This document shows, in pieces, positions 13,976-36,023 of a DNA stretch of 47,017 nucleotides. Position 1 is the first letter of the stretch. The number at the start of each line of letters is the position of its first letter. Origin of the DNA: a virus; IMG/VR virus record IMGVR_UViG_3300036760_000876, positions 1-47,017 of that record. The stretch is one strand, 5' to 3'. The position numbers were made by a program, and so were the translations under genes. The notes under the pieces were generated by a model. It was not told the origin of the DNA and did not search any database. It saw only the letters and a list, made by a program, of their open reading frames with translations.

Positions 13976-16900
13976 ATGGCGACAGGAACACCATTAAGAG
14001 TTCTGACAGCCGATATTCAAGACCTTGCAATTACGAATGCGAAGATTGGACTTCTCGCTGTCGATACCGCCCAGATTGCCAATCTTGCAGTTACGGAGGG
14101 AAAGATTGGGAACCTCGCCGTAACCAATGCGAAGATAAACGACCTCAATGCCACAAAGATTACCGCTGGGGATATCGCTACAGCCAGGATTCAGGTAAAT
14201 GCCGCCAATGCCGTGAATGCTGGGTCGGTTACAATTGAACCCGGAAAGATTCTTATTTCAGGATCTACTACTCTTTCGAACTGGCGGGATGGGTCGGACA
14301 ACACAAAAATCAATGGTGGCATGCTGGCTACCAATTCCATCAGTGCCAATATTCTTGTCATCGGATCGAGAAATGTAAGTTTTCAGGGGCTTGAGATCAG
14401 TGCGAATTATCCGGCAGCCAACACTCTGTATTGGAGTGCGGGGATCATTTCTTATATCAAGGATGATGGAACTACAGCCGATGCAACCATAACCTCGGGC
14501 AATCAATTGTGGTCATCTGGAACCTTATATCTCTACTGGGTGAAGGATGCAACGGTATTTTCCACCACGACGACCAGGGCCACTGCTTTTAGTTCGAACA
14601 ATCTCGTTCTTGCATCTTATCTCGGTGGGAATGATATGGTGGCCAATTACGGAAGGACGATCATTGACGGGTCTGACGTCCTGACCGGGACTATTACCGC
14701 GATCAAACTTAATGTCCTGGAGTTATCTGCCATCACAGCTAATCTCGGCTCGATTACGGCTGGTAAGATTGACATTGGGACTGGGGCCACATCTTACCAT
14801 TTCGATACATCTGGAAATTTATGGTTGGGTGCGGCTGCATTTGTCGATGGCTCATTTAGTGTCAGCAATGCCGGAGTTGTAAAAGCCAGAGCAGGGGATA
14901 TTGGAACATGGATTCTGACTGCCAATGGTTTAGCCGACAATGCCACGGAAGCAAATGCCAAAATTCTCCTTGACAAGACCAACACGCTCATCAGGGTTGG
15001 GGCAGTTGCGGCGGGATATATTCTGATCGACGGAAATAATCGTCTGATCAAGAGTTCAAATTATACTTCCGGCGCTTCTGGATTCCAGGCAGATTATGCT
15101 GGAAATCTCGAAGTCAATAACATCGACGCAAGAGGTTCCTTCCGTTGTTCAGTCTTTACCTATAGTTCAATACTTGCTTTCAATGGATCAGGGTGGTGGG
15201 TTCCAGCCTCTGGTAAACTCTATGCTGATTTTACCTCTGTTGATTCTCCAACGACTTTTAATATTGACATCGAAGATCCTGATGGGATGACCCATGCAGC
15301 CGCAGGGGCTCTTTGGGCGACCAATGACCAGATCAGGATCAAAGAGCCTGTCGGGACTGGAGTACAAGACCTGTGGGTAACGATCTCTTCCGTCTCTGAC
15401 CAGACCACCTTTTGGAGATTGGTAGTTGTTAAGAATTCTCCTGGAGCCGGTACGAATTACACCTTTACAAAAGGCGGGGCAGGCCTAAACTATAAACAGG
15501 GAAATAACGTCTATGGAAGCATATTGCTGACAGCGGATGCGACCTACTCCCCAAGAGTAAGCCTCTATACTCATCCGACATCCCCGTGGAATGGATTGAC
15601 TGAACGGCTGAGATTTGGCAATCTCAACGGGTTTCTCGGTTATACCGATAGTCTTTACGGTCTTGCTATCGGTGAGACAGATAGTTACTTTAAATACGAC
15701 CCGACCAATAAGTTGAGAATCAAGGGAACAATAACGATTACTAATCCCGGTGATATAAATACCAATACCTTGACCAACGGGGCCGGTTGGACAGACGATA
15801 CGACTGCCAACCTTAAGCGTAGAGTATTCGTTGCTGAGCCCACAACTCCTTACAATATTGGAGATTTATGGGCATCAGGAACTGTACTAAAAAAATGTAA
15901 AACAGAAAGATTAACTGGGGCATATCAAGCAGGAGATTGGGAATTAGCGACCGGATATACTGATGATGCCGTAGCGAATAGCAAGATAACAACATTTATT
16001 CAAGCTTCAATTCCCACCTCAATTTCAGCAGGTGATTTATGGATCGATAGTGATGATGGGAATAAACTTTATAGAGCGGTTATAGTGGGTGCAGATGAAA
16101 TAAAAGCAGGAGAATGGGTAGTTATTCCGACTGATTTTGCCAATATAAATGGCACAACTAAACCAGCCGACAATGCGACCGTGGGAGCCACTTGGGGGAC
16201 TAACCTCAACAGCATTCCCGCTACTCTCGGCACTCCCTCCGGGCAAGGACTTTTTCTAAGTGCAACCTATTTAGGATATTATGACAGCCCTAACTGGAAG
16301 ACCTATATGGATAGTTCTGGGAATTTCTATCTTGGTGGTGTCTCTGGGCCTTTACAGTGGGCTGCCGCAGCAAGCACATTATCTATTGGTAACTGGAGCT
16401 TTGATACCGTAAAGATATGGAAAGATGGAGCGACTGATGCCCTTTCTGCGGGTATGGCACCCGCTGATTATCCTTTTTATGCAGGTAAAAAATATGCGGA
16501 TAGAGCGAACGCATCCTTTAGGGTTACTCCCGATGGGGCTGTATTTGCTTCCTCTGCTACCATAACGGGTGCTCTCACAGCAGAAGCCGGTTCATCTATT
16601 GGGGCTGGGTATATATCTGCTGGGACAATCACCTCTAAGGCCATCACATTGGCTCTTACTCCTGGTGGCGGTGACGTCAAACTCCAGGCAGGGAAAACAG
16701 ACTTTGGTGATACGACTTCAGGTTTTATTCTTGGGATAGATGATAGTGATGGTGATAAACCCAAATTCGAGCTTGGAGATGTCACAACTTATTTTAACTT
16801 CGAACCTGGCAAGATGACTTACAAAGGAAGAATAATAAGTGTGAAAGCAGGATTTACAGAAGGCACTCCTGCTGCCGGTATTGGCGATGCCGTCCACTTT

Positions 16901-18088
16901 GAAACATCTGACGGAAAATATTATTTAGCGAATCCTTTAACCCGCAGAAATATTGTAGGGTTAAAGGATGGAGATGGAAATGTGATTCGGCTCGGACCAT
17001 GCGGCGGCCTCGCCGGGTTAACGGCTAACGCCATGTATTACCTAAAATGGCCTACTCTCGATTTAGGGGTGGATACGAATGTAACCTACGCTGGCAGTTT
17101 TGATGTTCGGCAAGACCTTGTGGACGAGTTTTCACAGGCTCAAAGTTTTCCAGGTCAGGTCGGCAAAGTGATAGCGGTGGTTGCTCTGCCTATGTATATA
17201 TATGGGACTGGTCCTACTTGCACTGGAGTTTATCTCACCTTAAAAAAAGCTGGAGCTGGCTTTAACGCCACTCTTGCAAGATCAGAAACCATTCCTATTG
17301 CCGATATACCCAATACATGGGTAGATATCAAAAATAATCTTACATATTTTAGATTTTTCGACCCTTATCCTCTGGAAGCTGCTACACAATACATGATTTG
17401 TGTATGTACCGATAGCAATATTGTCGATCCCGCAAATTATATACGGGTAAGAGGCCGGGCTTCTGGCAATGGTTATGCCGGAGGGGGAAGATACTATTCG
17501 ACAGGTGAAGCATATGGTATCCCCGAAGAATGGGAGTTTTGGGTTGATCCTGCCGATGGTTCCGATCTTTATATGCAAATCTGGTGGTTTGATGTGGATG
17601 CCCTTACTCCCAACATTACAATAGCTCACCCATTTGAGCATGTAGACGCCGATGTTACCTGCTACCATCCGATCATAAAGTTAGGAAGAGCTTCTTCGAC
17701 CACTGAATTAGATTTGAATATTGAACGGATGCAAACTATATCTTTTTACGAGGATTGGATTAATGAACTCGTTTACACTTCGGCGACCAGCGTGGAGATG
17801 ATTTACAATCACCTATCTACCATTACCACCTATGGAGTTGAACGCCTTCTCCTTTTATATAGAGCCAAAACGGGGAGTCTGACTCATACGCCAATCATCA
17901 AACCGTGCTGGAATTTCAATTCCACGGTCTTCGCTTGGGATTCCGTAACAACCTATTATCAGAATCAAAGGCCGTTTCGATCTTCTTTTATTTTTTCAGT
18001 AAATGGACGAGGTCAGTTGGGATTTGGCTTTAACCAAGATGCCGGTTATACAACAACAATCAAAGGAATTAGTATTTTGGGAGGATAA
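13976..18088 (+). CDS. Tail fibre / receptor-binding protein
   Basis: A 1370-residue protein whose ATG follows the hub stop directly. The N-terminus carries 10-12-residue repeats of the type NLAVTNAKIG / DLAITNAKIG and a later ITAGKIDIG, typical of trimeric fibre shafts attached to gpJ hubs. The middle has paired modules with GDLWASG...GDWELATGYTDD and GDLWIDSDDGNKLY, a pattern seen in many phage fibres. The C-terminal 300 residues (GVYLTLKKAGAGFNATLARS; IPEEWEFWVDP) look like a globular beta-sandwich and are the likely receptor-binding part. From about 15830 the codons become clearly more AT-rich, which suggests mosaic exchange of the distal fibre. Confidence 0.8.
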   Translation: MATGTPLRVLTADIQDLAITNAKIGLLAVDTAQIANLAVTEGKIGNLAVTNAKINDLNATKITAGDIATARIQVNAANAVNAGSVTIEPGKILISGSTTLSNWRDGSDNTKINGGMLATNSISANILVIGSRNVSFQGLEISANYPAANTLYWSAGIISYIKDDGTTADATITSGNQLWSSGTLYLYWVKDATVFSTTTTRATAFSSNNLVLASYLGGNDMVANYGRTIIDGSDVLTGTITAIKLNVLELSAITANLGSITAGKIDIGTGATSYHFDTSGNLWLGAAAFVDGSFSVSNAGVVKARAGDIGTWILTANGLADNATEANAKILLDKTNTLIRVGAVAAGYILIDGNNRLIKSSNYTSGASGFQADYAGNLEVNNIDARGSFRCSVFTYSSILAFNGSGWWVPASGKLYADFTSVDSPTTFNIDIEDPDGMTHAAAGALWATNDQIRIKEPVGTGVQDLWVTISSVSDQTTFWRLVVVKNSPGAGTNYTFTKGGAGLNYKQGNNVYGSILLTADATYSPRVSLYTHPTSPWNGLTERLRFGNLNGFLGYTDSLYGLAIGETDSYFKYDPTNKLRIKGTITITNPGDINTNTLTNGAGWTDDTTANLKRRVFVAEPTTPYNIGDLWASGTVLKKCKTERLTGAYQAGDWELATGYTDDAVANSKITTFIQASIPTSISAGDLWIDSDDGNKLYRAVIVGADEIKAGEWVVIPTDFANINGTTKPADNATVGATWGTNLNSIPATLGTPSGQGLFLSATYLGYYDSPNWKTYMDSSGNFYLGGVSGPLQWAAAASTLSIGNWSFDTVKIWKDGATDALSAGMAPADYPFYAGKKYADRANASFRVTPDGAVFASSATITGALTAEAGSSIGAGYISAGTITSKAITLALTPGGGDVKLQAGKTDFGDTTSGFILGIDDSDGDKPKFELGDVTTYFNFEPGKMTYKGRIISVKAGFTEGTPAAGIGDAVHFETSDGKYYLANPLTRRNIVGLKDGDGNVIRLGPCGGLAGLTANAMYYLKWPTLDLGVDTNVTYAGSFDVRQDLVDEFSQAQSFPGQVGKVIAVVALPMYIYGTGPTCTGVYLTLKKAGAGFNATLARSETIPIADIPNTWVDIKNNLTYFRFFDPYPLEAATQYMICVCTDSNIVDPANYIRVRGRASGNGYAGGGRYYSTGEAYGIPEEWEFWVDPADGSDLYMQIWWFDVDALTPNITIAHPFEHVDADVTCYHPIIKLGRASSTTELDLNIERMQTISFYEDWINELVYTSATSVEMIYNHLSTITTYGVERLLLLYRAKTGSLTHTPIIKPCWNFNSTVFAWDSVTTYYQNQRPFRSSFIFSVNGRGQLGFGFNQDAGYTTTIKGISILGG

Positions 18089-18098
18089 AAGGGGATTT

Positions 18099-18155
18099 AT
18101 GAATATGGAAAAAATGATTTATATCCGAACCCTGCCTCGTCTTTTAGGGAGATGA
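18099..18155 (+). CDS. Possible 18-residue leader peptide
   Basis: The frame from ATG 18099 encodes MNMEKMIYIRTLPRLLGR and stops one base before the ATG of the ParB-PAPS fusion gene. A purine-rich AAAAGGGG precedes it. It could couple translation to the next gene, or be chance; there is no family support. Confidence 0.25.
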   Translation: MNMEKMIYIRTLPRLLGR

Positions 18156-18156
18156 C

Positions 18157-19386
18157 ATGCAGAAGGAAATCAAATCCAAGATTCTGAAGACGGAACCGGT
18201 GAAATGGAAATCCCTTGAAATCATCCAGCCCAAAAATTTCAAGGAAATGTCGAAGGAATCCTATTCGAGGCTTAGGGAATCGTTGATAAAAAATGATTTT
18301 TGCCAGCCGATGAATGTTTGGCAGCACAACGGGAAGATACATTGTCTTGACGGACATCACCGGATCAAGGTCATGACTGAACTTGAAAAGGAGGGGTACA
18401 AGATACCTGAGAAGCTACCGGCAAATTTCATAAAGGTTCGGAATAGGAAGGAAGCTGCCAAGCTTATTCTGATTTACTCGAGCATATATGCAAATATTTT
18501 AGGAGATTCCCTTTATGAATTCATGTCCACTGAGGGCCTCTCTCTCGATGATATCAAGATGGACGTGGAATTGCCTGAGATCGACTTTGAGAAGTTTGAG
18601 ATGGAGTTCTTCGATAAATCTAACGGCGGTGGAGCGAATCAGGAGAATGAGGTCGAGCCCACATCCGAAAAAGAGTTTGATCTATTGGCCTTCGATTACT
18701 ATTATTTTGAGTTCTCTGGCGGAAAGGATAGCACGCTTGCCATGTTGAAGATGATCCCAATTTTGAAAGGAGCCAAAAAAGAATACGAGGCCGTGTTTGT
18801 CAATACAGGCGCGGAATTGCCCGATCTTCAATTTCATGTCATGCAGTTCTGCCTTAAACGAGAGATCCCCATTTCGATTTTGTCCCCGAAAGAGAGCATT
18901 GTTCATCATTACCTCAGAAAAAAGAAACTGCCGGATCCAATCTTCAGGGAGTGTATGCACGAATTCATTTACAAGCCGATTGATAACCATGTGGGCCAAT
19001 ATATCAAGGATGGAAAACGGGTGTTGGGGATCAGGGGCGGGCGTGGTGACCAGAAGACAACCAAGAGCAAGGCTGGAAAGCTCCAAGAGATAGAAAGAAA
19101 TGGGCTTAAATATCTACTTTATTCTCCTCTCTATGATTTGCCACAGGATCAATATGATGAGGAGTTAACCAAGATCGAGAAATGGGCAGGATATGAAAAA
19201 GGTTTTATTCGTACCGCTTGCTGGTTTTGTCCGTTTACTCATCCCGATCAGTGGGATGCACTCAAAGAAAATTATCCACTTGTATTCGGTTCACTCGTTG
19301 AAATGAACCAGATCTGCAAAATGCCGAACCACAAGGGGGACGGCAATTACAAACGCCACCAAGCTTATTTCAAAAAATATTGGTGA
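18157..19386 (+). CDS. ParB-like/PAPS-reductase-like fusion protein (IbrB-IbrA type)
   Basis: A 409-residue protein with AGGGAG about 5 bases before ATG 18157. Residues 18-75 are a ParB/sulfiredoxin-like domain with LDGHHR at 64-69. Residues 175-365 are an adenine-nucleotide alpha-hydrolase domain of the PAPS reductase/DndC class: the PP-loop SGGKDS at 187-192, VNTGAELPD at 215-223, and Cys266, Cys355-x2-Cys358 and Cys387 as possible metal-cluster ligands. In other mobile elements these two domains occur as adjacent genes (IbrB and IbrA, regulators in E. coli; DndC acts in DNA phosphorothioation). Here they are one protein. The substrate is unknown; ATP-dependent sulfur chemistry or nucleic-acid-linked regulation is the likely theme. 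It lies directly downstream of the fibre, a usual accessory-gene site. Confidence 0.75.
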   Translation: MQKEIKSKILKTEPVKWKSLEIIQPKNFKEMSKESYSRLRESLIKNDFCQPMNVWQHNGKIHCLDGHHRIKVMTELEKEGYKIPEKLPANFIKVRNRKEAAKLILIYSSIYANILGDSLYEFMSTEGLSLDDIKMDVELPEIDFEKFEMEFFDKSNGGGANQENEVEPTSEKEFDLLAFDYYYFEFSGGKDSTLAMLKMIPILKGAKKEYEAVFVNTGAELPDLQFHVMQFCLKREIPISILSPKESIVHHYLRKKKLPDPIFRECMHEFIYKPIDNHVGQYIKDGKRVLGIRGGRGDQKTTKSKAGKLQEIERNGLKYLLYSPLYDLPQDQYDEELTKIEKWAGYEKGFIRTACWFCPFTHPDQWDALKENYPLVFGSLVEMNQICKMPNHKGDGNYKRHQAYFKKYW

Positions 19387-19786
19387 ACTGGTATTCCTTA
19401 GAGGTCAAGAGTTTCCCGAGAACCCCGTTTCTTGCACAGGATGGGGAAAAATCACAGAGGATGATTTCATTGATCTTGTTCTCTCGGATGATTTCCAGAA
19501 CTCTTTCCGCACCCCGTAGAAAGAGATTTGTCAATTCCTTTCCGGTCACATTTTTTCTTTCCTTCTTGTCTGCGCAAGTCTCATAAATTCTGCCTTTGCG
19601 GGTTTTCACGGGTGGACGTGGACAGGGAAGTCCTCCAAGCATTTCCGGGCAAGCCTTGAATACTCTGCATTTTCCGGCTTGTTCATTTTTTAGTATTTGA
19701 CGAACCAATGTTGGTATATGGGCTTTTTTTGCGTGCCACCTACAGATGTCGCCGCACAAACAGGCTGAAACCAAAATTTTTTTCAT
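19370..19786 (-). CDS. TudS/DUF523 family protein, putative thiouracil desulfidase
   Basis: A 138-residue protein with GGAGG upstream of its ATG. Family signatures are present in order: VSACLCGDICR (Cys9, Cys11, Cys15), CPEMLGGLPCPRPP (Cys46), a GAERVLEI helix and SPSC at 114-117 (Cys117). DUF523 proteins studied so far bind a [4Fe-4S] cluster with three Cys and remove sulfur from thiouracil (TudS). The usual SPSCG is SPSCA here, and extra Cys at 11, 40, 55 and 111 are notable. The gene is convergent with and overlaps the ParB-PAPS gene by 17 bases, so the two may interfere or share a terminator-free boundary. Desulfidase activity is inferred from family only. Confidence 0.75.
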   Translation of the reverse strand: MKKILVSACLCGDICRWHAKKAHIPTLVRQILKNEQAGKCRVFKACPEMLGGLPCPRPPVKTRKGRIYETCADKKERKNVTGKELTNLFLRGAERVLEIIRENKINEIILCDFSPSCARNGVLGKLLTSKEYQFTNIF

Positions 19787-20142
19787 GACCTACCTCCCTT
19801 CTTTTTTTAAAGATTAAATCTGTATCTATATAAATGTCAAGTCTAATCAGTATGTTATAGATGCGTTAATTTGCAAATATTGGCGCGGCTTCAGATGTTT
19901 CAATAACACAAGGACCTTGAATATTAAGAACTGGCGAATGCATATACTGAAGTCTCAAATACTAAACAACCAAGTTTTAGCCCACTTTTTATCATCTTAC
20001 TCCAAACAACCCACTTTTTAATCTGATTGTGAAAAAATAGTTTTGTAATGATTTCAATAACATAGCATAGATTATACAAACCATATAAAATAACCCTTGA
20101 CAAGTAATATACATTATGATAGATTATAATCAAGAGGATGAG
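19787..20142. other. AT-rich divergent intergenic region
   Basis: No protein is supported here. The region separates the leftward TudS-like gene from the rightward accessory operon, so it should hold divergent promoters. CCCACTTTTTA occurs twice, at about 19981 and 20011, each preceded by a Cys/Ala-rich AACAA-type stretch, and could be a regulator site. Confidence 0.4.
20097..20125 (+). promoter_or_regulatory. Candidate sigma70 promoter of the accessory operon
   Basis: TTGACA at 20097-20102, a 17-base spacer and TAGATT at 20120-20125. The -35 is perfect and the -10 matches four of six. It lies 18 bases before the start of the 60-residue gene. Confidence 0.4.
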
Positions 20143-20325: not shown

Positions 20326-20429
20326 AGTGGCTCCAGTTTTCGGGCAGGAAATGCCCCCAGATGGTGGAACATCCGGTCTGGAGCCGGAAACATTATAACC
20401 CAAAACCAAAAACGAAAGGAGAAGAAAGT

Positions 20430-21701
20430 ATGAAACCAGAAAAAAGAGCACAGCAAATCAAAGAAAAAATCAGCAAAATCGTAGCGGACAAATCACAGGT
20501 AATCGCGTCCTACCACGTGAGCGACAACTCCGTGCAGGCGGAATTGAGGTTGTGCGCAGAGTGGGAAATCAGCGTACTCGTGGATGAGATTAATTACCCA
20601 CGGGATCTCAATCCAGACCTACCCAACAAAGATCTCTGGCAGCAAATGTGTGATCTGGCTTGGGAGATCAAAAAAATCTCCACGCTGATAGAGCGCAGAG
20701 TACCGGAGGGCTACGGGTCGCAGATGATCCCCATTAATGCCCGGACCAAAACCGGACCGGAGAAACGAGCAGAGGCAAAAAACATCTGGCTGATCGAGAC
20801 CGGCAAACAGTTTTTGGCGAATTATAAAGCGGTCACCGGCAAAAAACACCTCGCCGAAATCCGGAGACAGATAACCGATCTCCAAACCCAACAGAAAAAC
20901 CTCCTCCCAAAACTCCGGGAATCCAACAGTCTCTACCTATCTGGCAAAAAAACCGAGAGGGATGAGTTGGCACAGAAAAACGCCGAGGCTATCAAATCCG
21001 GGAAATTTTGGGAGGCAGATAAGGACACCCTGAAAGGGTATTTCCACCCCCCATTTGATAAAAATTACCTGGCGGATGTTTCTGAAAAATGGAGGGCGGC
21101 ACTCTTTTTGGAATGTGAATCCATCTCCTATAAATGGGGAGATAGAAACTGGGGACATAAACTCGGAGGAACCGGACGAGGGTATCTCTGTGGGATCGAC
21201 AATAACGGTGATGAGTGGGGGCACCGGGTTGAGAATCTTCCTCAATCTCGGGATAATTATGATAATGCCGGACTCGATAGCACCGTTGAGGAGGCAATGG
21301 CAAATCTGTTTGAGATCACCCAAACCAATCTTGCCACCTGCCAGCGCCAGGGGGATTTGTTGTTTTGCCCGGAGGAGATCCCGGGGGAGAGGATTGTTTG
21401 CGAAAATTGTGGACAGACCTGGAATGGGGAATATTGGGACTGCAATCGGCGCTGTATCCATTGCGGCATGACCCCGCCATACATTAACGGCCCCAAAGCC
21501 CTCCCCGCCGTGGAGATCCACCCCGAAGAAAAATGGACCCCCCGAAAATCCCATGAGATCACGAGCCCCAGCCTCCAGCGGAATGGACCGTATTTTCGGG
21601 CGGACCATGAGATCATCGTATCCCATACGAGTCACCCGACCGTAATTCTTCCCGCCGGGGAATATCGGTTGTATTCTTTGAGGATTGCGGATGCAGATTG
21701 A
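20430..21701 (+). CDS. Zinc-ribbon protein of unknown function (423 aa)
   Basis: GGAGAAG lies 7-13 bases before ATG 20430; the earlier in-frame start is unsupported. The N-terminal half is helical (KISTLIERRVPEG; LQTQQKNLLPKLRES). The C-terminal part has RQGDLLFCPEEIP, then a zinc ribbon with Cys324-x2-Cys327 and a CNRRCIHCG pair near 337-347, then SHEITSPS and SHPTVILPAGEYRLYSLR. The RQGD...SHxI...HxxHxxIxLPxGxYxV pattern resembles a small protein family I have seen in actinobacterial and phage genomes, here interrupted by the ribbon. Its function is unknown to me. A 60-residue gene precedes it and a radical SAM operon follows. Confidence 0.6.
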   Translation: MKPEKRAQQIKEKISKIVADKSQVIASYHVSDNSVQAELRLCAEWEISVLVDEINYPRDLNPDLPNKDLWQQMCDLAWEIKKISTLIERRVPEGYGSQMIPINARTKTGPEKRAEAKNIWLIETGKQFLANYKAVTGKKHLAEIRRQITDLQTQQKNLLPKLRESNSLYLSGKKTERDELAQKNAEAIKSGKFWEADKDTLKGYFHPPFDKNYLADVSEKWRAALFLECESISYKWGDRNWGHKLGGTGRGYLCGIDNNGDEWGHRVENLPQSRDNYDNAGLDSTVEEAMANLFEITQTNLATCQRQGDLLFCPEEIPGERIVCENCGQTWNGEYWDCNRRCIHCGMTPPYINGPKALPAVEIHPEEKWTPRKSHEITSPSLQRNGPYFRADHEIIVSHTSHPTVILPAGEYRLYSLRIADAD

Positions 21702-21819: not shown

Positions 21820-22248
21820 ATGGAAAAGAAAAGGATTGCACCACAAATCAGGGAAACGGCCACGGACTGGTATAAGGAGAATTTTTCAACCACAAACGCG
21901 GGGGTGGTCTTCATCCTGGAAAGCTTCCCGGAACTTTACAAACGGGTCATGCTGGAGATCAAGGAGAAAAAGTTTATCCGTGGCGAACTCCTGTTGATAA
22001 TAGACGTCTACAACGCCACGGCACTCACTCCCGGAATGCCTATGCTTGAGGCCCAGGTGTCGGACGGAATCGCATTGGACGGGCTGGATAAAAAATGGGA
22101 GATCAACGCGGAGGCGCTTATAAAAAAGGTAGAGTCATTGACCTCATTTCAGTCCACCGTCTTGGAGATTTGGGCCAATGGCTATTGGTATGCCCAGCAA
22201 GGAAAAGAGTTGCGCGACCTGGAAGAGTATGCTAAAGAATTACTATGA
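21820..22248 (+). CDS. Protein of unknown function, partner of the radical SAM gene
   Basis: A 142-residue soluble protein with AAGGAGG well placed before ATG 21820. It is helical (IRETATDWYKENF; LYKRVMLEIKEKKF) without recognisable motifs. It overlaps the radical SAM gene by ATGA, so the two are translationally coupled and probably work together, perhaps as a substrate or partner. ATAL/TPGMPMLEAQV at mid-length may be a surface loop. Confidence 0.6.
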   Translation: MEKKRIAPQIRETATDWYKENFSTTNAGVVFILESFPELYKRVMLEIKEKKFIRGELLLIIDVYNATALTPGMPMLEAQVSDGIALDGLDKKWEINAEALIKKVESLTSFQSTVLEIWANGYWYAQQGKELRDLEEYAKELL

Positions 22249-23033
22249 AACCAATCTATGAACCGGGAAATAAAGCCCGTGAATATTCACCCATGGCTCT
22301 TAATATCTACATAAATGGTTGCCCCCATAAGTGCCGTTATTGTTTTTCTCCGAGAGTTACTTTTAACTCAAATTATTTTTCTTCAACCCCCGAACCTCGC
22401 ACCAATCTCATTCTTCTCTTAGAGAAGCAATTAAAAAAAGAGACTATCAATGCCCAAGTTCTCCTCTCTTTTATCGGAGATCCCTACAACTCTGAGGAGA
22501 AGAAGCACCGAATAACCCGGCAGGTCTTGGAAATACTTCTTGCCAACAAAGTCCCGGTTGCTATACTCACAAAGGATGGCAAGAATTGTCTTGATGACAT
22601 CGATCTTTTCAAACGGTTCGACGGCCACATCAAAGTTGGGGCATCCCTGACATTCATCGAGAATAAAGATTCTCTCGAATGGGAACCCGGGGCATCTCTA
22701 CCTAATGAAAGATTTGATGCCTTAAAAGAACTCCATCGAAACGGAATTAAGACATGGGCCAGCTTAGAGCCTGTCATTGATCCAGAGCAAACCGTGAGGA
22801 TCATCGAAGAGACCCATGAATATGTCGATCATTACAAGGTCGGCAAGATAAACCATATGAAGGAGATCGAGGCAAGGGTTGACTGGCTCAAATTCTTGGA
22901 AGAGGTTGTAATATTTTTGAGACGGATTCAGAAACCATACTATATCAAGCATTCTCTTCAGATCCATAATAGATCAATCCAGTTCAGGCCGGAGGAGATT
23001 GACCAGGATCATTTATGTGTCCCGTCGTTTTGA
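22245..23033 (+). CDS. Radical SAM protein, SPL-like
   Basis: A 262-residue protein with the radical SAM cluster motif C26-x3-C30-x2-C33 in GCPHKCRYCF. LLSFIGDPYN at about 77-86 and WASLEPVIDP are typical of spore photoproduct lyase-like and phage-encoded radical SAM proteins. Such enzymes cleave S-adenosylmethionine to a radical and act on diverse substrates, including nucleic acids. It is shorter than SplB (about 340 aa), and the N-terminal MKPIYEPGNKAREYSPMALN is like stand-alone homologues. The substrate is unknown. It is the last gene before the attachment site. Confidence 0.8.
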   Translation: MKPIYEPGNKAREYSPMALNIYINGCPHKCRYCFSPRVTFNSNYFSSTPEPRTNLILLLEKQLKKETINAQVLLSFIGDPYNSEEKKHRITRQVLEILLANKVPVAILTKDGKNCLDDIDLFKRFDGHIKVGASLTFIENKDSLEWEPGASLPNERFDALKELHRNGIKTWASLEPVIDPEQTVRIIEETHEYVDHYKVGKINHMKEIEARVDWLKFLEEVVIFLRRIQKPYYIKHSLQIHNRSIQFRPEEIDQDHLCVPSF

Positions 23034-30125: not shown

Positions 30126-30722
30126 ATGGCACTAACAGCAAAAGACAAAGGCGGCGGAGATTTTACACCAATCCCAGAGGATCTTCACTTGGCGGTCTGT
30201 TACGGGATTTGGGATCTTGGGACACAATTTTCAGAACGGTGGGAAAAATCCGTTCACAAGGTTGTAATAGTCTGGGAGATTCCCGGATGCCGGGGAGAGT
30301 TCGAGAGAGACGGTCTGAAGGTTAACCTTCCGCGGGCAATCAGCAAACGGTACAGAATCAGTCTGCATAAAAAAGCAGATCTCAGAAAGGACTTGGAAAG
30401 CTGGCGAGGAAAGAAATTTACCGACGAAGAATTGAAAGGATTTGACCTCAAACGTCTTCTTGGTGCGCCCTGTCAAATACAGGTGTTGCACAATAAAGTT
30501 GACGACAAGTTGTTTGCCAACATCGCAGCCATTACAAAAGCCCCAGCCGGAACCAAACTCACACCTGAGAATCCCTTGAAGTTTTTCTCATTCGAAGATG
30601 GACCAGAAGTGCCAGAGGGAACCCCACAGTGGATCATGGATCTTATTCGGCATGCCGAGGAGTATAAGGGCGGCGGGGTTCATGAAGAGCACGATTCACC
30701 GGATTCCGATATTCCATTTTAA
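30126..30722 (+). CDS. Phage single-stranded DNA-binding-like protein
   Basis: ATG 30126 follows AAAGGAGAGAG. The 199-residue product contains HLAVCYGIWDLGTQ, KVVIVWEIPG, ISLHKKADLRKDLESWRGK and FDLKRLLGAPCQIQV, a pattern found in phage proteins next to recombination genes and thought to bind ssDNA. It ends in SPDSDIPF, an acidic tip matching the SSB C-terminal tail (DDDIPF) that docks many DNA repair proteins. It sits directly upstream of sbcD/sbcC-like genes. Confidence 0.65.
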   Translation: MALTAKDKGGGDFTPIPEDLHLAVCYGIWDLGTQFSERWEKSVHKVVIVWEIPGCRGEFERDGLKVNLPRAISKRYRISLHKKADLRKDLESWRGKKFTDEELKGFDLKRLLGAPCQIQVLHNKVDDKLFANIAAITKAPAGTKLTPENPLKFFSFEDGPEVPEGTPQWIMDLIRHAEEYKGGGVHEEHDSPDSDIPF

Positions 30723-30741
30723 AGAGAATGGAGGTGTAGTT

Positions 30742-31893
30742 ATGCAGGTGATTCATTTTGCTGATGCCCATCTGACCCAACGCGGAAATCTTGCAGGGAG
30801 ATTTGTCTTGGAGAATGGAATCAATATTACTTTACTGGATAAAATTAAAGCTCTCGAAAAAATCTGCGAATATGTAGAAACTGAAAATGTTGATCTGACA
30901 GTAATCGCTGGGGATCTCTTCGACAATGCTAATCCAGAGAATATTGCTATCCATGCCGCTGTGCAGATGATTGAAAGGCTGGCAGAAGTAGCCCCAGTTG
31001 TATTGATTCGAGGGAATCATGACGGAAAGACTTCAACTTCTTCAGCTCTTGCCCCATTTGGAATGCTGGCGAGACGTAACGGAATTTATGTTTTTGAACA
31101 GCCTGAAGTATTCTCCATAATTATCAAAGACACTAAGGTTCAGGTTTTCGCCCTTCCGTATCCAAGATGGTCTGATTTTACACAAGACTCACAGCTTAAA
31201 TCAATGTCCCCCGAGGAAATCTCGATTTACATTTCCAGCAAGATGGAAAAGACCATTTCTGGTTTCTCGGCCATGATCGAACGAAATGCGGTAAATTTGT
31301 TCGTTGGGCATTTCAGCGTTGATGGGTCCAACTATAGTAAGGAGCAGACGGTTCCACCTTTTGATATCACCATTCGCTGGGAATTTCTTGAGCCGTTCGA
31401 TCTTGTCTGTCTGGGTCATCTACATACACCACAACCCCTATATTCAGGATCAATTTCCCGTAACGGTTTTGGGGAACAGGATCAAAAAGTAGGTTTTAAG
31501 GTTTACGATATTGAGCCAGGAGGCAAGCCCACCGAGCAGTTTATTGAACTGCCAGCCCGTCAATACATCACCTTGTCAGTGGAGGACTTTCTCAATAATT
31601 CATCCTACCTGACACCGGAAATGGTGGTGAGGATCAAGGGGCAGGTCCCGAAATTCAAATATGACGAGGCGGTCCGCAAGATGAAGGCCCTGGATCTGCC
31701 TTTCCTGAAAAACGCCATCGAGGTTGAGAGTGAAACGGCTGACGGCGGCAATGGTGGGGATGTTTCTGAAGAACCCGGAATTGAGGAGGCGGTCAGGATG
31801 TGGGGAAAGGGCCGTGAAGGTGTGGACAAGTTCATAGAACGCCTTGTTGTGGCGGCCAAAGAGATTGAGAGCAAGACCAGTGAAGCGAGGTGA
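30742..31893 (+). CDS. SbcD/Mre11-like nuclease subunit
   Basis: GGAGG lies 7-8 bases before ATG 30742; an upstream in-frame start inside the SSB-like gene is not needed. The 383-residue protein has the metallophosphoesterase motifs in order: FADAHL (6-11), GDLFD, RGNHD, GHFSVDG and GHLHTPQ. Mre11-type subunits are Mn-dependent 3'-5' exo- and endonucleases. A cap-like region follows (about 240-330). With the following SbcC-like gene it forms the phage SbcCD complex, as T4 gp47/gp46, for recombination, host DNA degradation or replication. Confidence 0.85.
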   Translation: MQVIHFADAHLTQRGNLAGRFVLENGINITLLDKIKALEKICEYVETENVDLTVIAGDLFDNANPENIAIHAAVQMIERLAEVAPVVLIRGNHDGKTSTSSALAPFGMLARRNGIYVFEQPEVFSIIIKDTKVQVFALPYPRWSDFTQDSQLKSMSPEEISIYISSKMEKTISGFSAMIERNAVNLFVGHFSVDGSNYSKEQTVPPFDITIRWEFLEPFDLVCLGHLHTPQPLYSGSISRNGFGEQDQKVGFKVYDIEPGGKPTEQFIELPARQYITLSVEDFLNNSSYLTPEMVVRIKGQVPKFKYDEAVRKMKALDLPFLKNAIEVESETADGGNGGDVSEEPGIEEAVRMWGKGREGVDKFIERLVVAAKEIESKTSEAR

Positions 31894-31898
31894 TGACG

Positions 31899-34283
31899 AT
31901 GCGCGATTTAAAAATTCATGCCCAAAATTTTTTATCACATGAGGATACCGAGATTAAACTGGACGGCATTGATGCCGTCATTGTAACGGGAAAAAACGGA
32001 TCAGGAAAATCTACCTTGTTGGTTGATTGTCCATTGGTTGCTCTGTTCGGCAGGGGGAGGGCCGAATCAATAGGAGACTACATCAGGAATGGGAAAGACA
32101 TGATGATCGTAGAGTACGACTTTTCCATCCTGAATGACCAGAGATACCGGGTCACTCGCAAGCATAGCAGAAAGACGGCCAGGGGATCTTCAAGTCTACA
32201 GTTCAAAAGGATCGATGCGACTGGCAACGAGACCATGGACCTAACTGCCGGAAGCATCGATGAGACCCAGGAGATCATCGAAAAAACGATCGGAACCGAT
32301 CTCGATACTCTGATGCATACGAGTATCTACGAGCAGGAAGAGGCGGATTTCTTCTGCAAGGCCCGGCCATCGGAGAGGATGAAGTTGTTTTCTAAGGTTT
32401 GGGACCTTGAAAAATATTCTCGGTATGCACAGGCCGCCAGGGATATATGGCTCGGTAAGAAAGACAAGCCAGGCCTACAGGCGGAGATAGCGGCGATTGA
32501 TGCCAGAATCACTTCTGCGAAGCAGAGAATATCGGAGATCAAGGGGAAGGAAGGGGAACTGGAAAAACTCCGGTCCGATATCGAGAAGGAGATTCAAGGC
32601 GTGTCCTCTCTTGAAAAGAAAAGAGGAGACCTCCAAAAGAAACTCGGAGCATTTGAGAAGATCAATGAGAATCTAAAAAAATCCATAGATGACAAGGCCC
32701 GGGTTGAGCAGGAAATTAAAAATGTATCGGGCCAGCATAGTCAACTACTTTCCAAGATAGAGCGGTTTACGAAGATTTTCAATAACCAGGAGGTGGTCAG
32801 GGCCAAGGTAATTGAGGAGGAGGAGAAAACGAAAGCCTTATCTGACCTGGAAACTGAGTTGAAATCTCTTGATCAAACCATTGAAACGCTTCGCCAGGAA
32901 ATGGAGGTTACCAGGAAGGAATACCAGGGAAGGCTTGATGAGATAGAAATAGAGACTCATGCCATCGATGTCGATTTGTCAGATGCCAGAAAGAAAGAGA
33001 CGACCCTGCAGAAAGCCATGGGTGAGATAGGCCGTAGTGAGGAGCAACTCAAGCATCTATGCCTGGATGCCGACAAACTCAAAGGTATCGCCTGCCATCC
33101 AGATTTCGACCCGAACTTTATTAATGAGACCTGCCGGTTTATCAGGGACGCTATCGAGGCAAAACGGAGAATCCCCGAGTTCAAATTCGAAATCGCCGCT
33201 AAAAGGATGGAGATCGAGTCAAGCATGGCATCCTTGAAGGGACAGATAGGGCTATTTGAAGAGAAGAGGGCCTGGGGCATATCCTTAATCATGGAGATAA
33301 AGAAAAACCTGTCAGGGGCTATTTCTGCGAAAGAGGCAGATGAAAAAACTATGATCTCGGGCCGGAATGGCAAAAAAATCGAGATTGAAGGGATTAAAAC
33401 TGAACTACAGGAGATAAAGCGATATACCAAGCTTCTTCCAGAGATTGATCTTGCTGAAAAGGAATTGCCAAGCCTGAAAAAAGAGGGGGCTGACCTTTCT
33501 AAGAGATGCAATGAACTGGTTGCAACCAGGAACCAGATTGTAAAAGAGATTGGGGAATTAAACGAAAATCTAAGCGCTAAAGGGAAGTTGGACACTGAGT
33601 TGCAATTGGTTGCGATAAATCTGAACCAAGCAATCACAAGAAAGGACGAGCTGACCAAAAAGATAGGTTTCATCGAGGCGGAGCTTGCCCAGGGAGAGAC
33701 TCTTAAGACCCAAATAGAACAGGACGAGAAACAGATTGAACGGCTCGAGAGCGATAAGGCGCTCTATCAGATTCTTGAGGATGCCTTCAAGCAGATTCCC
33801 TATATGCTGGTTGCCCGTGGGATTGACGTAGTTGAGAGAATCGCCAATGAGATTCTTGGGATGATCAGCTCCGTGGGGTTGACAGTCCAAATTAAAACCG
33901 AGAAGGAGACTAAGACCACAAAAACTGTCAAGGATGAAATATATCTCTCCTTCGAAGACAATGAGGGTCACAAGGAATATAAGTTGCTTTCCCAGGGCGA
34001 AAAGGTTAGGGCGGCGGTAGCGCTGAGGCTTGCCATGAGCGAGGCCCAGGCCCATAGAAGAGGCGTCAGGATTGATAAACTCATAGCCGATGACGTGTTT
34101 GGGGCTCTCGACACTGAGGGGATTGAGGACATGAAAATAGCCATGCGGGAGTTGAAGAAAAGATTCAAATTTACGGCAATTCTGAGCCATATTGAATCCG
34201 TTCAGGATATATTTCCGACCCGGTTGATATTTTCAAAGGGACCAGGCGGGTCAAGGATCGAGGTTCAGGAGGATTATGCATAA
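31899..34283 (+). CDS. SbcC/Rad50-like ATPase
   Basis: Of the three possible starts (GTG 31890, ATG 31893, ATG 31899), 31899 has the best distance from GAGG (8 bases). The 794-residue protein has Walker A GKNGSGKST at 31-39, long antiparallel coiled coils (about 190-660), signature LSQGEK at about 697 and LIADDVFGALD at about 728-738. No CxxC zinc hook is visible in the middle; CLDADKLKGIACHPDFD carries spaced Cys instead. The Walker B acid pair is D-D rather than the usual D-E. It partners the SbcD-like nuclease upstream. Confidence 0.85.
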   Translation: MRDLKIHAQNFLSHEDTEIKLDGIDAVIVTGKNGSGKSTLLVDCPLVALFGRGRAESIGDYIRNGKDMMIVEYDFSILNDQRYRVTRKHSRKTARGSSSLQFKRIDATGNETMDLTAGSIDETQEIIEKTIGTDLDTLMHTSIYEQEEADFFCKARPSERMKLFSKVWDLEKYSRYAQAARDIWLGKKDKPGLQAEIAAIDARITSAKQRISEIKGKEGELEKLRSDIEKEIQGVSSLEKKRGDLQKKLGAFEKINENLKKSIDDKARVEQEIKNVSGQHSQLLSKIERFTKIFNNQEVVRAKVIEEEEKTKALSDLETELKSLDQTIETLRQEMEVTRKEYQGRLDEIEIETHAIDVDLSDARKKETTLQKAMGEIGRSEEQLKHLCLDADKLKGIACHPDFDPNFINETCRFIRDAIEAKRRIPEFKFEIAAKRMEIESSMASLKGQIGLFEEKRAWGISLIMEIKKNLSGAISAKEADEKTMISGRNGKKIEIEGIKTELQEIKRYTKLLPEIDLAEKELPSLKKEGADLSKRCNELVATRNQIVKEIGELNENLSAKGKLDTELQLVAINLNQAITRKDELTKKIGFIEAELAQGETLKTQIEQDEKQIERLESDKALYQILEDAFKQIPYMLVARGIDVVERIANEILGMISSVGLTVQIKTEKETKTTKTVKDEIYLSFEDNEGHKEYKLLSQGEKVRAAVALRLAMSEAQAHRRGVRIDKLIADDVFGALDTEGIEDMKIAMRELKKRFKFTAILSHIESVQDIFPTRLIFSKGPGGSRIEVQEDYA

Positions 34284-34618: not shown

Positions 34619-35229
34619 CTGAAATTCCGATAGTATATCAATCTAAAAAACCAGTCAAATTTCCGATTACACCGGAGATCCATGCCGCGATAGAGAGGGT
34701 CTATCTTCGAGATAGTGGTAATGGTCAAGTGCGAGCTCTGGCAATCAGATTGAATTATCCTCGGTGGAAAATCTCCCGTTATGCCATTCGAATGGGATGG
34801 GTTCCGAAACAGAAAAAGGAACCGGATTGGACGGAGCGAGAAATCAAAATCCTTGAGCGAAGCGCTCGTTATTGCCCGGAGGTGATTCAGAAGAAACTTA
34901 AACAATATGGGTTCCAAAGATCCGCAACCGCGATCGTTCTGAAGAGGAAAAGACTTCGCCTTCTCCAAAATCTTGACGGAATGAGCGCTACGTCTTTGGC
35001 AAATTGTCTCGGGGTTGATGTTCATTTCGTCTTACGCGCCATTTATGGGGGACGGCTTAAGGCACAAAAAAGAGGCACGAGAAGGACTAAGGAGCAGGGC
35101 GGGGATATCTGGCATATCAAAGAAAAAGACATCCTGAAATATATTCTTTCGTGGCTCAATGAAATCGATATTAGAAAAGTCTCAAAGTGGTGGTTTGTCG
35201 ATCTTCTGATGGTAAGGAATTTAAGATGA
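34615..35229 (+). CDS. DNA-binding protein, Myb/SANT-like HTH
   Basis: A 204-residue protein starting in ATGA overlap. The middle TEREIKILERSARYCPEVIQKKLKQYGFQRSATAI (residues 72-106 in part) resembles a SANT/Myb or homeodomain-like HTH, with a second possible HTH at about 125-150 (MSATSLANCLGVDVHFVLRAI). Basic overall. Such proteins occur in phage early regions as regulators. It overlaps the next gene by ATGA. Confidence 0.5.
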   Translation: MTEIPIVYQSKKPVKFPITPEIHAAIERVYLRDSGNGQVRALAIRLNYPRWKISRYAIRMGWVPKQKKEPDWTEREIKILERSARYCPEVIQKKLKQYGFQRSATAIVLKRKRLRLLQNLDGMSATSLANCLGVDVHFVLRAIYGGRLKAQKRGTRRTKEQGGDIWHIKEKDILKYILSWLNEIDIRKVSKWWFVDLLMVRNLR

Positions 35230-36023
35230 AATGTCCTACCTGTGGAGGCCTAATCATCCATGAGCCAGCATCCTTATTCGGATCACATCCAGCCAGAGAT
35301 TATTGTTACATGTGCGGGCGGGAGGCACAGGTTGAAATTTCAGAGGATGAGAATATGGCAAATAATCTGAGTTACGAAAAGGAAGAAGAGGTAAAGAGTC
35401 TTTTAAAAACGGATTCAATCAGGGAAATCATCAAGAAAACAGGGGTATCGAAGAACTCGGTTACGCGGATTAGAAACGAGAATTTCACAGAGAAAGAAAG
35501 AGTAGAGATGAAGAAGCGGGCCAATGTGAAGGGCCGGAATAAAAGGGAATTGAAAAAAGAAGGGGGTGATAAAGAGATGGAAGAAATATTGACAAAGGAT
35601 TGTCGGAAGTGCGGGCCAAAGCCCATAGCTGAGTTTACAAAAAGTAAGGGTGCTTCGGACGGGTTTGACCCTCTTTGTCGAAAGTGTAAGTCCGATTATA
35701 GGTTGGAGCGGATCGGTGAGAAGACTAAGGGGAATATGGGTGATGGGCGGTTTAAGAAAATAAAGAAGAGCCGAGACTACAAGGCTGAGTATAAGAGAAG
35801 GGCGAGCAAGGCACCCCTAAAAATTCCATCCTCAGAGATTGCAAACCTACCCGACAATAACGACCTCCCCAAAAAATTGCTCGGTATTCTCCATAAGAAG
35901 GTCAAGGAGATCGGCGCTCTCATAGAAACCTTCGGGCTTCTCCAGAAGGAGGGGATCATCAGGAAGGATGCAGAGTTTCCGAGCCTGGCATCGCTGATGG
36001 ATGTGTATGGGATCGGTTCTTAA
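35226..36023 (+). CDS. Double zinc-finger DNA-binding protein
   Basis: ATG 35226 overlaps the previous stop, giving 265 residues. Zinc ribbon 1: CPTCGG at 3-8 with CYMCG near 28-32. An HTH-like segment (SIREIIKKTGVSKNSVTRI) follows. Zinc finger 2: CRKCGPKPIAEFTKSKGASD then CRKC. The basic central part (KRANVKGRNKRELKK; KAEYKRRASK) suggests nucleic-acid binding. HNH-associated and phage regulatory proteins often carry this second finger type. Confidence 0.55.
   Translation: MKCPTCGGLIIHEPASLFGSHPARDYCYMCGREAQVEISEDENMANNLSYEKEEEVKSLLKTDSIREIIKKTGVSKNSVTRIRNENFTEKERVEMKKRANVKGRNKRELKKEGGDKEMEEILTKDCRKCGPKPIAEFTKSKGASDGFDPLCRKCKSDYRLERIGEKTKGNMGDGRFKKIKKSRDYKAEYKRRASKAPLKIPSSEIANLPDNNDLPKKLLGILHKKVKEIGALIETFGLLQKEGIIRKDAEFPSLASLMDVYGIGS

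Follow-up and report, generated by a model that had tools for sequence, protein, structure and literature searches.

A ParB-like domain fused to a PP-loop ATPase domain, and a short protein of the DUF523/TudS family, are encoded next to one another in the 47,017-bp IMG/VR virus record IMGVR_UViG_3300036760_000876 (positions 1 to 47,017; the whole stretch is referred to here as the window). The two genes constitute a genuine module, apparently undescribed, that is present in dozens of distantly related bacterial and archaeal viruses. That the fusion and the DUF523 protein form a functional pair is close to certain. The module is interpreted as a system for the sulfur modification of a nucleic acid with a dedicated desulfidase partner, a reading to which, taken as a whole, we assign a probability of about one half; the target is most likely the virus's own DNA. 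The pairing is not mentioned in the available part of the open-access PMC text on DUF523, TudS and RudS, on phosphorothioation or on ParB folds.

The fusion gene occupies positions 18157..19386 of the plus strand (409 aa, ATG start) and the DUF523 gene positions 19370..19786 of the minus strand (138 aa, ATG start). The two ORFs are convergent, with a tail-to-tail overlap of 17 bp. Strong Shine–Dalgarno sequences lie upstream of both: AGGGAG at 18146..18151 (plus strand) for the fusion and AGGGAGG at 19793..19799 (plus-strand numbering, for the minus-strand gene) for DUF523. A large tail-type gene (13976-18088) lies upstream of the pair, and on the other side follow an unknown ORF and a radical-SAM gene and then an integrase and a CI-like repressor. 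The pair in the window, placed behind the tail gene and near the integrase and not adjoining a terminase, is in an accessory-gene location of a temperate phage.

The N-terminal half of the fusion is ParB-like. This ParB/Srx-type domain (about residues 11-140; 18187..18576, plus strand), delimited from profile matches, was matched in the PHROG profile search by phrog_498 (E=2.7e-7) and phrog_1033 (E=4.9e-6), and the profile of the ParB-half family matches solved ParB/Noc/Spo0J structures (best 6.9e-12). In the family alignment the G-H-x-R motif (G66-H67-x-R69 in the window protein; 18352-18363, plus strand) is mostly kept, with the Gly present in 26/27 and the Arg in 23/27 members. A match to phrog_498, which is annotated as DNA methyltransferase, was obtained with the ParB half of 26 of the 27 members (best 4.9e-45), and as judged from these alignments the half is of the type found on phage ParB–DNA methyltransferases. 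Phage ParB-N6/N4 DNA methyltransferase fusions (phrog_498; PMC12704722) carry an N-terminal ParB domain homologous to that of the module fusion and are often encoded in the same locus as the module or neighbouring it; a ParB-N6_N4_MTase gene adjoins it in loci L024, L035, L049, L065, L101 and L102. They differ from the module fusion in their second domain: the Pfam results for the fusion contain no methyltransferase domain, which is replaced by the PP-loop domain. The available part of a survey of ParB folds describes ParB-fold/methyltransferase fusions as enriched in phages and ParB folds as shown to bind ATP, CTP or GTP, and its main text, to the same extent, makes no mention of PAPS-type fusions (PMC12704722). 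A terminase was found inside the retrieved flanks of 31 of the 56 loci.

The two domain types of the fusion also occur in IbrA/IbrB, a phage pair of a PAPS-reductase-like and a ParB-like protein, a likeness by domain type alone. Unlike IbrA/IbrB, most module members are a single fused protein, and no DUF523 partner for IbrAB is reported in the papers found. At two loci (L002 and L030) the ParB and PP-loop halves are separate adjacent ORFs, in the manner of IbrB/IbrA.

The C-terminal half (PP-loop ATPase domain, about residues 177-400; 18685..19356, plus strand; profile and fold matches) matches phrog_424 (E=9e-17), which is annotated as phosphoadenosine phosphosulfate reductase, and SspD in PADLOC (5.4e-12); the Pfam PAPS_reduct match (6.5e-4) falls slightly below the cut-off. 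Profile matches among the 27 members were to SspD in 27, to BrxP in 25 and to DndC in seven. Residues S187, G188, G189, D191 and S192 of the SGGKDS motif (residues 187-192; 18715..18732, plus strand) are invariant in 27/27 aligned members and correspond to the ATP-binding SGGxDS form. Also invariant in this alignment are C266, G294, W343, G345, Y346, G349, R352, C355, C358 and P359; of these, Cys266 (18952..18954, plus strand) is candidate Fe–S ligand 1, and Cys355 and Cys358 of the RTACWFCP motif (19210..19233, plus strand) are candidate ligands 2 and 3. An earlier note on this DNA had described a ParB-like domain joined to a PP-loop domain with SGGKDS and a set of Cys residues; the profile matches bear this description out and its coordinates were exact. 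The AlphaFold model of the fusion, calculated with family members only as the alignment input, has a pLDDT of 88.5. In fold comparison the PP-loop half came closest to the assimilatory APS reductase 2goy; CysH, FAD synthetase, GMP synthetase and TtuA, a tRNA thiolase with a [4Fe-4S] cluster, ranked next.

ECGxH, the C-terminal catalytic Cys motif of CysH, is absent in every family member scanned. A true PAPS reductase was rejected on this ground: the fusion is probably not such an enzyme, and the name 'PAPS reductase' used in the earlier note is a misnomer that is valid as a superfamily label and fails as an enzyme identity. The repertoire of PP-loop enzymes extends to the addition of amines, lysine or other groups, and sulfur is therefore not guaranteed for the fusion. 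The three invariant Cys residues and the SspD/DndC-like scores would fit an ATP-dependent, Fe–S-assisted thiolation, in which three Cys ligands would leave one iron of a putative [4Fe-4S] cluster open for sulfur. TudS likewise works with a three-Cys cluster in which one iron is open for sulfur. DndC is described as a three-Cys enzyme in this manner in the available part of PMC10853773. The module fusion shares the PP-loop SGGxDS domain with DndC, SspD and BrxP, and its Cys set could likewise hold a [4Fe-4S] cluster; in contrast to the Dnd and Ssp systems, its PP-loop domain is fused to ParB and paired with DUF523. Cysteine desulfurase, DndD/DndE, SspB/SspC and restriction genes were not found as shared neighbours of the module, and PADLOC identified no Dnd or Ssp partner in a set of ten window proteins from the vicinity of the pair. 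A multi-gene Dnd/Ssp system was rejected, as no third gene is shared.

The DUF523 protein of the window matches PF04463 (2-thiour_desulf) with an E value of 1.1e-23 and 84.2 bits against a curated cut-off of 34.7. It matches TudS (PDB entry 6z92) at 7.1e-9, and the family profile does so at 1.7e-28. The only significant structural matches of its AlphaFold model (pLDDT 97.0, again with family members only as the alignment input) were five TudS chains. The convergent DUF523/TudS neighbour noticed earlier is thus confirmed by Pfam and by TudS sequence and fold matches. In TudS, Cys10, Cys43 and Cys104 hold the cluster and Glu45, Ser101 and Ser103 are catalytic (PMC10611767). The corresponding residues of the window protein, all encoded on the minus strand, are Cys9 (TudS Cys10; 19760..19762), Cys46 and Glu48 of Cys46-Pro-Glu48 (Cys43 and Glu45; 19643..19651) and Ser114, Ser116 and Cys117 of Ser114-Pro-Ser116-Cys117 (Ser101, Ser103 and Cys104; 19436..19447). 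C9, C46, C117, E48 and S114 are invariant in 37/37 module DUF523 members; S116 is present in the window protein and is Ala in a few relatives. By sequence comparison, the window protein is homologous to TudS, and its desulfidase active site is intact.

The module DUF523 proteins share with TudS, a thiouracil/4-thio-UMP desulfidase, the fold, the three cluster Cys residues and the catalytic Glu and Ser, but differ from it in their linkage to the PP-loop fusion and in one loop. The ribose-clamping loop of TudS (~20 residues after SPSC, with an IYDG motif) is missing: the SPSC Cys is separated from the following G(I/V) motif by 3-7 residues in all 36 complete module members, and (W/Y)HG stands in place of YDG. 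Generic DUF523 proteins keep a loop of ~20 residues after SPSC. In docking, Tyr110 in the TudS loop clamps the nucleotide sugar (PMC10611767), and the loss of this clamp suggests that the substrate of the module proteins may be larger or differently presented. The DUF1722 domain, which together with TudS makes up RudS, is absent from the 138-aa window protein, which has no second domain, and a tRNA eraser of the RudS type was rejected on this basis. An extra Cys15 was considered as a unique marker of module DUF523 proteins and was also rejected, since generic DUF523 proteins (e.g. L110 and L112) share a Cys there.

Linkage of the two genes was assessed from both sides. The DUF523-seeded search of IMG/VR gave 18 contigs, in 16 of which a PP-loop gene is adjacent; one of the remaining two ends at the DUF523 gene and the other (3300048599_000246) has the fusion elsewhere on the contig. 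A single-sequence IMG/VR scan with the window fusion returned no relatives, its patterns being too specific, and the fusion alignment was used as the query for the PP-loop-seeded search. Of the 47 strong contigs from this search, 36 have DUF523 in the retrieved flank; nearly all of these DUF523 genes abut the PP-loop gene, mostly within a few dozen bases. Beyond the 36, one contig has DUF523 elsewhere and one has a DUF523 fragment by a degraded PP-loop domain. Weaker-scoring outgroup PAPS-reductase contigs, scanned as whole records, served as the control, and DUF523 was found in 0/19 of them (36/47 versus 0/19, Fisher p=3e-9; p=6e-10 after the removal of near-copies and truncated loci). The one weak-scoring contig that does carry DUF523 (L061) is a truncated family member and stands outside this control. 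Five contigs (L021, L029, L044, L052 and L065) have the ParB fusion and usable flanks but no DUF523; either DUF523 is therefore not strictly required or these records are incomplete.

In the scan of bacterial genomes 7/7 loci carry both genes, the end of the contig truncating one of the seven; the loci are from Planctomycetota, Phycisphaerae, Crocinitomicaceae, Akkermansia and Desulfarculus MAGs. Generic DUF523 genes in the same genomes (L113, L114 and L119) have no PP-loop neighbour. The cultured archaeal Methanoculleus virus Blf4 carries the fusion, DUF523 and a terminase in a row, with the module at MZ171369 1242-2942. Its two proteins are annotated as 'DNA modification methylase' (the fusion) and 'hypothetical protein', and the former label looks like a misannotation carried from the ParB half.

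Among the 38 PP-loop domains placed on a tree, 28 belong to convergent gene pairs, nine to tandem pairs and one to a divergent pair, and adjacency has been kept through at least six orientation changes that well-supported branches require. With the convergent orientation dominant, a shared operon is not the usual arrangement and co-transcription is unlikely. The distance matrix of one protein is correlated with that of the other (r=0.36, 0/5000 permutations); median identity is about 30% and 39% for the two proteins. A chance neighbourhood was rejected by the linkage statistics and the orientation changes. The earlier note had allowed for random association, which is not borne out: the two genes occur together in dozens of diverse viruses, and neither the control PAPS-reductase viruses nor the generic DUF523 loci show the combination. 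Terminases and other phage genes aside, the neighbourhoods have no third gene family in common.

A plasmid search returned only one weak match, to a Borrelia ParB region. The DUF523 genes in other phage-collection records (L107-L112; Listeria, Enterococcus, Acinetobacter and Pseudomonas) are of the generic type and have no PP-loop neighbour. The Acinetobacter gene sits among bacterial metabolic genes and the other such records are unannotated, unverified clones, and these records may therefore be host DNA. On contig 3300033145_000788 (L062; 98,976 bp) a degraded PP-loop domain of 184 aa, in which no SGGxDS was found, lies beside a 52-aa DUF523 remnant; here the fusion-type and DUF523 genes seem to be decaying together.

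In the mechanism that we propose, the PP-loop domain would adenylate the target at a carbonyl or phosphate oxygen at the expense of ATP; sulfur carried on a [4Fe-4S] cluster held by C266, C355 and C358 only would then take the place of this oxygen, with chemistry as in TtuA/TtcA-type or DndC/SspD-type enzymes. The sulfur would come from a host cysteine desulfurase, since none is encoded nearby. The ParB domain may bind NTP and act as a switch for loading the enzyme onto DNA, as in phage ParB–DNA methyltransferases. The short DUF523 protein would remove or handle the same sulfur as an eraser, a proofreader or a sulfide carrier, presumably with the mechanism of TudS and with a substrate that exceeds free 4-thio-UMP in size. 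That the same ParB carrier bears a PP-loop domain in place of a methyltransferase suggests a further route to viral DNA modification, and the SspD/BrxP/DndC-like scores and the desulfidase partner make sulfur the most economical modification. Of the thio-chemistry module suggested by the earlier note, the pairing stands on the linkage, and the sulfur chemistry is plausible, being supported by the invariant desulfidase residues and the phosphorothioation-type PP-loop scores. A narrower proposal, put forward tentatively and with the odds clearly against it, is a minimal writer/eraser pair in bacterial and archaeal viruses: ParB-guided thiolation of viral DNA by the Fe–S PP-loop enzyme would write a new mark with sulfur in the base or the backbone, and the short TudS protein would reverse it. 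To our knowledge, there is no earlier reversible DNA thio-modification module.

The alternative that survives best, although unlikely, is an ATP-dependent modification of viral DNA that does not involve sulfur (amination, amidation or other PP-loop chemistry), with DUF523 in an unrelated clean-up role. GMP synthetase, TilS and QueC have PP-loop folds and score in the profile and fold searches, and the ParB–methyltransferase parallel requires no sulfur, whereas the dedicated [4Fe-4S] desulfidase partner and the SspD/BrxP/DndC-type scores indicate sulfur. A role on RNA is slightly less probable again; here the fusion would thiolate, or DUF523 de-thiolate, host tRNA (s4U/s2U) and so tune translation or the UV/stringent response. 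The available part of PMC11417400 describes RudS, a TudS relative with DUF1722, as stripping s4U from tRNA and reports that viral RudS exist, and TtuA-type tRNA thiolases are among the fold matches. However, the pair has neither DUF1722 nor another RNA-binding domain, its ParB half belongs to the phage DNA methyltransferase type and the loci adjoin DNA-modification and packaging genes.

Counter-defence, in which the pair would neutralize a host phosphorothioate defence or toxic thionucleotides and viral DNA would not be modified, is improbable. The accessory position in the window, after tail genes and near the integrase and repressor, would suit such a role, and DUF523 can take sulfur off thionucleotides (PMC10611767). 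The PP-loop partner and its ParB–methyltransferase-like half are nevertheless left unexplained, and the neighbouring ParB–DNA-methyltransferase and terminase genes favour viral DNA as the target over a counter-thiolation role. Removal of phosphorothioate sulfur is, as far as we know, not part of TudS chemistry, which also counts against counter-defence. Auxiliary sulfur metabolism, with the fusion as a true PAPS/APS reductase (a cysH AMG) feeding sulfide and DUF523 recycling thiouracil, is highly improbable despite the phrog_424 annotation and the APS reductase as best fold match, given the absence of ECGxH in the members scanned, the ATP-binding SGGxDS form of the PP-loop and a ParB fusion for which assimilation offers no rationale.

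Genes labelled 'cysH/PAPS reductase' in viruses are frequently assigned to sulfur metabolism; for the clade of fusions, an enzyme of nucleic-acid modification that has an evident partner is the better interpretation, and the short DUF523 proteins gain a first genomic context. PP-loop-based nucleic-acid modification is a known kind of system. If sulfur modification of viral DNA, the reading preferred here, is correct in its chemistry, a reversible sulfur mark would join the known phage DNA modifications, and a reversible thio-mark on DNA would be categorically new. With Blf4, a two-gene case is available in culture in which viral DNA can be tested for sulfur-containing nucleosides; the pair is also present in Akkermansia genome loci.

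Several other genes of the window, all on the plus strand where coordinates with strand are given, were noted. An ORF of 446 aa (20361-21701, plus strand) contains a Cys-rich segment resembling a zinc ribbon and matches no Pfam or PHROG family significantly. The radical-SAM protein (22245-23033, plus strand; phrog_13321) resembles the PA0069 and rSAM mobile-pair-B families; its gene overlaps by 4 bp an ORF at 21820-22248 (142 aa, no family match), with which it may form a second two-gene accessory unit adjoining the module. Further along are a phage-encoded SbcD/SbcC-like pair (30598-34283, plus strand; phrog_100 and phrog_77) and an HNH-endonuclease-like protein (35187-36023, plus strand) with a weak match to a Lar-like restriction-alleviation family (phrog_5558, 4e-4).
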